From NCBI GenBank assembly GCA_946184675.1, contig CAMHFW010000003.1, forward strand, positions 1 through 42,980: a DNA stretch of 42,980 bases. The letters run 5' to 3'. The translations under genes and the position numbers were made by a program. The stretch is from an uncultured Clostridia bacterium (GTDB lineage: Bacteria > Bacillota > Clostridia > Lachnospirales > Lachnospiraceae). Within the stretch, counting starts at the first letter, position 1, and the number at the start of each line of letters is the position of its first letter. The notes under the pieces are model-generated. The model worked only from the letters and a program-made list of their open reading frames with translations. It was not told where the DNA came from and searched no databases. This document shows positions 1 to 42,980 of this stretch, piece after piece.

Positions 1-83
1 GGAGACAGGGGACGGTTCTCTGTCTCCCTCTCCGTTTTCCGCCCTCTGCAATCTTAGGAGACAGAGAACCGTCCCCTGTCTCC
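1..83. repeat. Dispersed inverted-repeat element, copy 1 (short-core variant)
   Basis: 27-bp arm GGAGACAGGGGACGGTTCTCTGTCTCC (1-27) and its exact reverse complement (57-83) flank a 29-nt core. The same arms recur at 17523 and 42806. Confidence 0.9.
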
Positions 84-16224: not shown

Positions 16225-17520
16225 ATGTACATAAAAGATAGCAGCAAACAGGAACAGACAGCAACTTTTACCGTTGTGATTCCGCCCGAAGAGTTCGGTG
16301 CGGCTGTAGAGAAGGCGTATGAGGATAATAAGGGAAAGCATCAGCTGGAAGGGTATGAAGCTGGGCAGGCTCCCCTGGAGGCATATCGGGAAAAGTACGG
16401 GGAGACGGCCTTTTTCCAGGAGACCCTCAGCAGTCTGGCCATGAGCGCCTACCAGGATGGCCTGGAGGAACTTGCAGTAAAACCGGCAGGACAGCCTTCG
16501 GTAGGGAATGTGACAGCTACTCTGGAAGACGGTGCCTCCATGACATTTACTGTAATGCTGTATCCGCAGGTGAAGCTGGGCCAGTATAAGGGCCTTCGGG
16601 CAGAAAAGCGGATCCTTCCCGTCACGGATGAGGAAATCGAGCTTGAGATAGAAGCAGCACGCAAAAAGATCGGCCAGACCCGCATGGCGGCCGTGACAGA
16701 CCGTCCGGCACAGAAGGGCGACACCACAGATATTGATTTCGATGGATTCCTGGACGGCGAGTGTTTTGAGGGCGGAAAAGCCGAGCATTATTCCCTGGTT
16801 CTGGGAACGGGTACCTTTGTCCCCGGTTTTGAAGAGCAGGTAGAAGGCATGCAGACCGGTGAGGACCGGGATATCCATATCACCTTCCCCGAGGATTACA
16901 CACCCGATCTGGCCGGGAAGCCGGTAGTATTTAAGGTTCACCTGCACGGAATCATGGCCCCGCAGGAGCCGGAGATTGACGACGCATTTGCAAAAGACGC
17001 ATCCGGCGGCAAATTTAAGTCACTGGAAGCCTACAAGGCAGACCTGCGCGTGACCCTGACCGGCCGTCATGCAGCAGAAGCAGAGGAACGTTTCGGCAAT
17101 GCCGTCCTGACACAGGCCATTGACAATATGCGCGTAGACATTCCGGAGAAAATGATCCAGGATCAGATCGGAAAGGTACTGCAGTCCTATGCAGACCGTT
17201 TCGGCATCGATCCGCAGACGCCCGCAGAAGAGCTGATCCGAATGCTGGGAATCACGGAGACGATCATGAAAGAAAATATCGAACCCCAGGCCATCTCACA
17301 GCTCCGCTCCTCCTTCCTGCTCAACGCAGTCGCAGAGGCAGAAGGCCTCACCGTCAGCGAGGAAGAAATCGGGGCATTCGCAGACCAGATTGCCAAGGCA
17401 AACTTCGGTGCCTCCAGAGAAGACGTAATCCGCTATTTCGGCAAGGCATTCATCGAAGAAGAAGTGCTCAAAGACAAGGCCGAAGGTCTGATTGTAAAAG
17501 CCGCCCAGGTCATCGGCTGA
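16225..17520 (+). CDS. Trigger factor-like peptidyl-prolyl isomerase/chaperone (divergent)
   Basis: N-domain/FKBP/C-domain layout; AQKGDTTDIDFDGFLDGECFEGG...FVPGFEEQVEGMQTGEDRDI. Ribosome-binding loop is degenerate (GYEAGQAP). Confidence 0.88.
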   Translation: MYIKDSSKQEQTATFTVVIPPEEFGAAVEKAYEDNKGKHQLEGYEAGQAPLEAYREKYGETAFFQETLSSLAMSAYQDGLEELAVKPAGQPSVGNVTATLEDGASMTFTVMLYPQVKLGQYKGLRAEKRILPVTDEEIELEIEAARKKIGQTRMAAVTDRPAQKGDTTDIDFDGFLDGECFEGGKAEHYSLVLGTGTFVPGFEEQVEGMQTGEDRDIHITFPEDYTPDLAGKPVVFKVHLHGIMAPQEPEIDDAFAKDASGGKFKSLEAYKADLRVTLTGRHAAEAEERFGNAVLTQAIDNMRVDIPEKMIQDQIGKVLQSYADRFGIDPQTPAEELIRMLGITETIMKENIEPQAISQLRSSFLLNAVAEAEGLTVSEEEIGAFADQIAKANFGASREDVIRYFGKAFIEEEVLKDKAEGLIVKAAQVIG

Positions 17521-17522
17521 GG

Positions 17523-17671
17523 GGAGACAGGGGACGGTTCTCTGTCTCCCTCCCCCTGTCGTCATACATCTTCAAAAAAAGCTCGAAAAGCCAGTTTTAT
17601 GCTGGTTTTCGAGCTTTTTTTGTCGAACGGAATGGAAGAAAGGGGGAGACAGAGAACCGTCCCCTGTCTCC
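17523..17671. repeat. Dispersed inverted-repeat element, copy 2, with bidirectional terminator core
   Basis: Perfect 27-bp arms (17523-17549, 17645-17671); central hairpin AAAAAAAGCTCGAAAAgCCAG..CTGGTTTTCGAGCTTTTTTT (17574-17621). Confidence 0.95.
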
Positions 17672-18616
17672 CTAAATCAAGCCCAGACTGCGGAGCAGGT
17701 AGATCCAGAAGGTGACTGTAAATGCGCTGCATATGGTGGTGATTACGACTGCGTTGGAGGTCAGGGTTCCTTCGTGGCCCATGTTCCTTGCCATTACAAA
17801 GCTGCTGACGGTTGTGGCGGAGCCCAGCATGATCAGGATGGCGACCAGTTTTTCATTCCGAAAGCCCAGCTCGACTGCGATGGGAAGGAAAATCGAGCAC
17901 AGGCCGATCAGCTTCATAAAGGCTGCGAGCACAGCGGGCTTTAGCTCGCCGCCGACTTTTTTGAAGTCGATGCTGGCGCCCATGGCCATCAAACCAAGCG
18001 GGGAAGCCAGGTTTCCGATATTGGTCAGGGTCTTATTCAGGATCGGGGGCATGGGAATACGCAGGAGAGACCAGACAAGTCCAAACAGTATGCTGAGGAT
18101 GATTGGATTGGTTGCAATCCCGTAAAGGGTCCGCTTGATGGTATTGCGGTCCAGCTTGCGGTCGGCATCTGTAAAAAGGATGAGGACGATAACGGCCATG
18201 ATATTGTAGAGAGGGACACTTCCCAGGATCATCATAGGCGCCATGCCGGCGTTGCCGTAGATGCTGGAGATGAAGGCGATGCCCAGAAGGGCGGCGCTAC
18301 TCCGGTAGGAGGCCTGTATAAACTCACCCCGGCGCGCCCCTTTTACAAAAATCAAAGAAAGGCCCCAGGCGATCAGAATGCTCACGAGCGTTGCAAAGAA
18401 ACAGAAAATGACGAACTTCGGATCCCAGGAGGAGGCGAAGTCTGTCTCCGCAAGCTCGCGGAAGACCATGACCGGCAGCGGAACCAGAAAGACAAACTGA
18501 TTCATCTTTGACGCAAAGATATCATCGATCCAGTTAATCTTGTGAAAAAAGACGCCAAGCACCATCAGCAAAAAAACAGGGACGGTTGCATTCAGACTGA
18601 AAACCAGATTTTCCAT
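17672..18616 (-). CDS. AEC family (auxin efflux carrier-type) transporter
   Basis: MENLVFSLNATVPVFLLMVLGVFFHKINWI...; NKTLTNIGNLASPLGLMAMGASID; RBS GGAAGGGA on the minus strand. Confidence 0.9.
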   Translation of the reverse strand: MENLVFSLNATVPVFLLMVLGVFFHKINWIDDIFASKMNQFVFLVPLPVMVFRELAETDFASSWDPKFVIFCFFATLVSILIAWGLSLIFVKGARRGEFIQASYRSSAALLGIAFISSIYGNAGMAPMMILGSVPLYNIMAVIVLILFTDADRKLDRNTIKRTLYGIATNPIILSILFGLVWSLLRIPMPPILNKTLTNIGNLASPLGLMAMGASIDFKKVGGELKPAVLAAFMKLIGLCSIFLPIAVELGFRNEKLVAILIMLGSATTVSSFVMARNMGHEGTLTSNAVVITTICSAFTVTFWIYLLRSLGLI

Positions 18617-18817
18617 AAAAATCCCTTCCATTATGCATAATTCATAAAAGCAGGACTATTATAACACAAGCGAATCAGCAGAAAAAGTGAGGAATCCGTC
18701 AGAAACGACTACTTTTTTGCACTTGCAGCAAATATTCTCTTGTCTTATACAGGGGAAAAGGATTATAATAAACTGGAATGATTTTGAAATCAAAATAAGC
18801 TTTCAGGAGGCATTTAT

Positions 18818-42805: not shown

Positions 42806-42952
42806 GGAGACAGGGGACGGTTCTCTGTCTCCCCCCTTTCTTTCATTCCGTTCGACAAAAAAGCTCGAAAACCAGCATAAAACTGGCTTTTCGAGCTTTT
42901 TTTGAAGCCATGTGGCGACAGGGGTAGGGAGACAGAGAACCGTCCCCTGTCT
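42806..42952. repeat. Dispersed inverted-repeat element, copy 3, core in the opposite orientation to copy 2
   Basis: Arms at 42806-42832 and 42928-42952; core hairpin AAAAAAGCTCGAAAACCAG..CTGGCTTTTCGAGCTTTTTTT (42857-42903) is the reverse complement of the copy 2 core. Confidence 0.95.
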
Positions 42953-42980
42953 ACTACAATGTATTTATGGTTGAGATACC

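Follow-up and report, generated by a model that had tools for sequence, protein, structure and literature searches.

The question raised by this locus is what kind of sequence fills the gap between the stop codons of two convergent genes, and whether it could end the transcripts of both. The DNA analysed (hereafter the window) is a stretch of 42,980 nucleotides, contig C3 of a host assembly of 1.9 Mb in 209 contigs that is 87% complete. In the window, a trigger factor gene on the plus strand (16225..17520; Pfam Trigger_N/FKBP_C/Trigger_C) faces an AEC-type transporter gene on the minus strand (17672..18631; Pfam Mem_trans, 8.2e-30). The trigger factor stop codon, TGA at 17518-17520, is separated by 2 nt (GG) from a 149-bp unit, and the AEC stop codon, TAG on the minus strand, lies at 17672-17674. 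The stop-to-stop gap, 17521-17671, is thus occupied by an inverted-repeat element, just as a preliminary description of this locus had stated. This trigger factor is an extra, divergent copy, and its best relatives are about 37% identical. Other trigger factor homologues in the host genome are found on contigs C5 and C60, and most of the nearest named trigger factors belong to Clostridia.

We consider it probable (roughly 0.7) that the unit is a REPIN-type element dispersed by a REP-associated tyrosine transposase (RAYT), that its spacer is a bidirectional intrinsic terminator, and that it is now the shared end of the convergent pair. A mobile-type repeat, in other words, seems to serve here as a shared gene ending.

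Anatomy of the 149-bp element

The left REP arm (17522-17550, plus strand) is an imperfect palindrome, GGGAGACAGGGGACGGTTCTCTGTCTCCC, and forms a perfect 29-nt inverted repeat with the right REP arm (17644-17672, minus strand). The arms had been described as perfect over 27 bp; the perfection was confirmed, while the length proved to be two nucleotides greater, so that the outermost base of the right arm is also the final base of the AEC stop codon. Each arm is itself palindromic over 14+14 nt at 86%, and a single arm is predicted to fold alone at -20.4 kcal/mol.

The spacer contains a predicted terminator hairpin at 17573-17622. Its perfect 17-nt arms (17573-17589 and 17606-17622) include A7 at 17574-17580 and T7 at 17615-17621, in agreement with the preliminary description. 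The predicted folding energies are -29.3 kcal/mol on the plus strand and -27.1 kcal/mol on the minus strand. On both strands, a stable predicted hairpin is therefore followed by T7, the arrangement of an intrinsic terminator. The A and T tracts pair with each other, and such pairing can weaken an intrinsic terminator. Alternatively, the whole element is predicted to fold as one long REP-to-REP stem at about -99 kcal/mol. An Rfam search of the window matched no family.

Copies in the host genome and the plan of the core

The 27-nt arm motif was found in 73 copies across the host assembly with up to 3 mismatches, against 0 for a reversed control pattern, and in the window it was matched 17 times, where shuffles gave an expectation of 0.78. 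Chance is therefore excluded. The multiple copies foreseen in the preliminary description were found, and a single-copy sequence, which that description had named as a refutation, is excluded. The window holds a second copy of the element (42806..42954, minus strand), which is 94% identical and lies in the opposite orientation, 6 nt past the stop of an unrelated, MATE-family gene. With up to 2 mismatches, the 27-nt motif occurs in only 4 of 392 genomes of the order, the host included.

REPs are dispersed and mostly extragenic, a minority overlapping called ORFs. Within 130 nt of each other, 19 pairs of REPs were found, one of them direct and 18 inverted, all in the same sense. Accordingly, 36 REPs form 18 inverted doublets; the remainder, apart from the direct pair, are single, some merely because of contig ends. 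Two kinds of spacer were distinguished. Eight doublets have spacers of 2-62 nt without the hairpin core, and ten have spacers of 74-95 nt with the hairpin, mostly flanked by A/T tracts. A doublet with a 29-nt spacer and no core lies at the start of the window (1..83), where it is cut by the contig end. In three further hairpin copies (C6b, C61 and C201) the second arm is degraded or cut off, which brings the A/T-flanked hairpin spacer to about 13 copies.

The core copies share a common plan: A tract, variable stem, AAAA, YCAG, loop, CTGR, TTTT, the complement of the stem, and T tract. The stem sequences vary between copies yet remain paired, the basal stem changing on both sides. In the basal stems, 55 of 60 positions pair, a value unmatched in 100,000 re-pairings of the arms among ten copies, although the resulting p-value is indicative only, as it rests on manually defined stem blocks and on copies that are related to one another. 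Hand-set blocks were used because a MAFFT alignment of the cores loses the register of the stem pairs. Compensatory change is known in terminators of Bacillus cereus (PMC5381666). With these compensatory changes, the earlier proposal of a bidirectional terminator is, as a prediction, strongly supported in sequence and structure. Weaker hairpins are found in two copies, C34a and C34b, which are located among consecutive genes that all point the same way.

It could be argued that the hairpins are native host terminators at each locus, beside which REPs were inserted later, and that the whole element never moved. The elements do lie at 3' ends, where native terminators are located, and the stem sequences differ between loci. 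In another genus (G009), moreover, a similar terminator-like hairpin follows a gene without REPs. The spacer sequence outside the hairpin, however, is common to unrelated loci with unrelated flanks: it is shared by w17523 (the present element), w42806 and C87, by C6a, C6b and C61, and by C151 and C201, while no similarity was found between the flanks of the copies. Hairpins with this tip occurred only in REP-bearing units in the 152 kb of host sequence examined, which was sampled around REPs only and is biased towards REP sites. In addition, REPs flank the hairpin on both sides at a near-constant spacing, 85-95 nt in eight copies. We therefore regard a native origin of the hairpin at each locus as unlikely. 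Spread by gene duplication was also considered for the two copies beside AEC genes (w17523 and C87) and was rejected, as the two proteins share only 26% identity where they align.

The origin of the core was approached through relatives. In G004, a REP-bearing genome of the same genus, none of the REPs examined carries such a core, and its clear doublet has a spacer of 10 nt; the core thus looks like a lineage-specific gain. The hairpin in G009 (L189:1265-1330, contig C60) is 86-88% like the core of the window element, and a hairpin of this type is a possible source of the core.

Placement at gene ends

Genes around the REPs were called by a codon-usage score. Among 41 facing gene 3' ends, 29 lie within 8 nt of a REP, with a median distance of 6 nt and five at exactly 0. 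Of random intergenic positions in the window, about 8% fall within 10 nt of a gene end, or about 14% by a hand count that excludes one 1.5-kb gap. Three core-bearing doublets (w17523, C6a and C110) lie between convergent genes. At the locus considered here, the terminator hairpin begins about 50 nt past either stop, with the T runs at about 95 nt from each. A REP of the present type was also seen just after the stop of what is apparently the same sensor-kinase gene in two species of another family (L195 in G170 and L200 in G110), so that some REP positions may be old.

The proximity to stop codons allows a different reading, in which the main effect falls on translation: REPs up to about 15 nt from a stop would stall ribosomes, hold them back or shield the 3' ends of mRNA, with the core only adding to this. 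In E. coli, many REPs are found 1-20 nt away from a gene end; at less than 16 nt from the stop, they can down-regulate translation (PMC12306157). The median distance of 6 nt found here and the predicted stability of the REP hairpin alone would agree with such a role. It leaves unexplained, however, the A/T tracts on both sides of the core and the pairing kept through stem changes, and as the primary explanation it appears quite improbable. An effect on translation is nevertheless compatible with termination, and the two readings are not exclusive. Terminators a few bases past a stop codon are repressed by the ribosome, whereas more distant ones work (PMC4824070); the spacing of about 50 nt at the present locus would therefore be favourable for termination.

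The preliminary description had proposed a comparison with orthologous junctions that lack the element. The closest AEC orthologue (L223 in G004, 73% identical in amino acid sequence) has no REP within 1.5 kb downstream, and an unrelated terminator-like hairpin lies shortly past its stop. This is consistent with acquisition of the element at the 3' end of the AEC gene by the host lineage. The comparison is one-sided, as the neighbour of this orthologue is not a trigger factor, and the divergence of the trigger factor in the window means that the relatives offer no two-sided orthologous trigger factor/AEC junction. For C110, the copy flanked by a synthetase gene, the homologues in the genus are distant (about 35%), and no empty site was obtained.

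Mobility and the link to RAYT

No Y1 transposase was detected in the 209 contigs of the 87% complete host genome by Pfam profile. Nor was a RAYT found in the genus, including by a search with the RAYT protein of G170, a genome of a different family in the same order. Y1 proteins of G004 and G001 were considered as candidates and were read as IS200-type transposases instead. In G170, which is one of the four genomes of the order with the 27-nt motif, an ORF of 290 aa encodes a RAYT-like protein (Y1_Tnp, 1.9e-16; NCBIfam REP_Tyr_transpos, 79 bits, just under the cut-off of 80) and is flanked by inverted copies of the present REP type. This fact links the REP type to a RAYT. In some other relatives (L187, L186 and L192), RAYT-like genes are flanked by different repeats with a common GGGGAC core, which suggests rapid change of the REPs around a fixed motif.

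That the copies owe their spread to exchange between REP arms (recombination or gene conversion) and not to a RAYT, with pairing kept by template switching in the palindrome (a known process in quasi-palindromes) and not by selection for termination, is very improbable: the arms are nearly identical across the 73 copies and the host genome yielded no RAYT, but such exchange needs a REP already at the target, leaves the first arrival at many sites and the REP-flanked RAYT-like gene of G170 unexplained, and template switching alone would not retain A/T tracts at both ends of the stem.

Several REPs are themselves interrupted. Two core-bearing REP units (L064:1548-1641 and L072:1-99, on contigs C4 and C34) are interrupted in the hairpin loop, and the contigs end there. 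The two interrupting sequences, TGATATGCTACCCCCAAGTAGGACA and GGTGTGCTACCCGTCAAGAGGACAG on the strands read, are different and resemble ends of IS3-type elements. Insertion elements that target the loops of REP/BIME palindromes are known in enterobacteria. Four other REPs (window 42951-42980 and the contig ends L068, L089 and L092) are cut at the same point and run into a common sequence, which reads GGTATCTCAACCATAAATACATTGTAGTAG up to the REP. This sequence resembles a stretch upstream of an IS200-type transposase in G004 (L097). The junctions probably represent an IS200/IS605-type element inserted in REPs.

Under RAYT dispersal of a terminator-bearing element, the course of events would be as follows. 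A REPIN-type unit would have been dispersed by a RAYT through single-stranded DNA hairpins. In the host lineage, the spacer would have acquired a bidirectional intrinsic-terminator hairpin, and this would have been carried along as the element spread. At the present locus, both transcripts would end at the T runs, with the terminator hairpin clear of the terminating ribosome. Movement of the unit by a RAYT in the past, the ending of transcripts there in the cell, and selection that keeps the terminator working are inferred. A further-reaching version can be offered only tentatively, and we hold it to be somewhat doubtful: the REPIN lineage may have taken up a two-way terminator as cargo and spread to gene ends, replacing native terminators, the stem pairing being kept by compensation because the host depends on the copies.

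REPINs are usually seen either as parasites that genomes tolerate outside their genes or as modulators of weak effect. If the terminator works, it would explain how REPINs can sit immediately between stop codons in a compact genome, and the copies would provide a natural series of terminators with a common plan and differing stem sequences. Whether a mobile repeat has been co-opted to end two transcripts becomes a testable question.

Comparison with known repeats

The preliminary description had spoken of a MITE/REP-like unit. The REP-like, multi-copy character was borne out. The reading as a classical MITE, derived from a DDE transposon, was not supported, as the flanks CTGAGG and CTAAAT show no target-site duplication and the termini are REPs of the sort found on both sides of the RAYT-like gene in G170. 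The element was compared with phages, plasmids and IMG/VR, and no match was found.

REPINs are REP doublets that form hairpins and are associated with RAYT transposases (PMC3116915). The element resembles them in its two inverted REPs with a less conserved spacer and in its many copies, mostly outside genes; the REPs are short imperfect palindromes, a doublet can fold into one hairpin, and in a relative, G170, a RAYT-like gene has this REP type on its flanks. It differs in that the spacer of about 13 copies is a hairpin of the intrinsic-terminator type with A/T tracts, that the REPs reach nearly to the stop codons, and that no RAYT was found in the 87% complete host genome. REP dimers have also been described with spacers of 20-100 bp, some with stem-loops or complementary ends (PMC3733652); a keyword look-up in that paper returned neither terminators nor Firmicutes/Clostridia. 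A limited search of the open literature did not yield any REPIN whose spacer is a terminator.

With regard to function, two other systems offer precedents. SPRITE, a pneumococcal repeat resembling a Rho-independent terminator (PMC3049150), is likewise multi-copy, lies near gene 3' ends and has been proposed to be co-opted as a terminator. SPRITE, however, ends simply in AAAA/TTTT, whereas the present element ends in REPs of 27-29 nt and has T runs on both strands; it is not a member of that family. In Neisseria, to judge from the account cited in the SPRITE paper (PMC3049150), inverted DNA uptake sequences are repeats present for another reason whose stem-loops are predicted terminators. In that system the stem is made of the inverted repeats themselves, whereas in the present element a separate hairpin, enclosed by the repeats, is the putative terminator. 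The element would work like SPRITE and the inverted uptake-sequence terminators, while being built differently from both.
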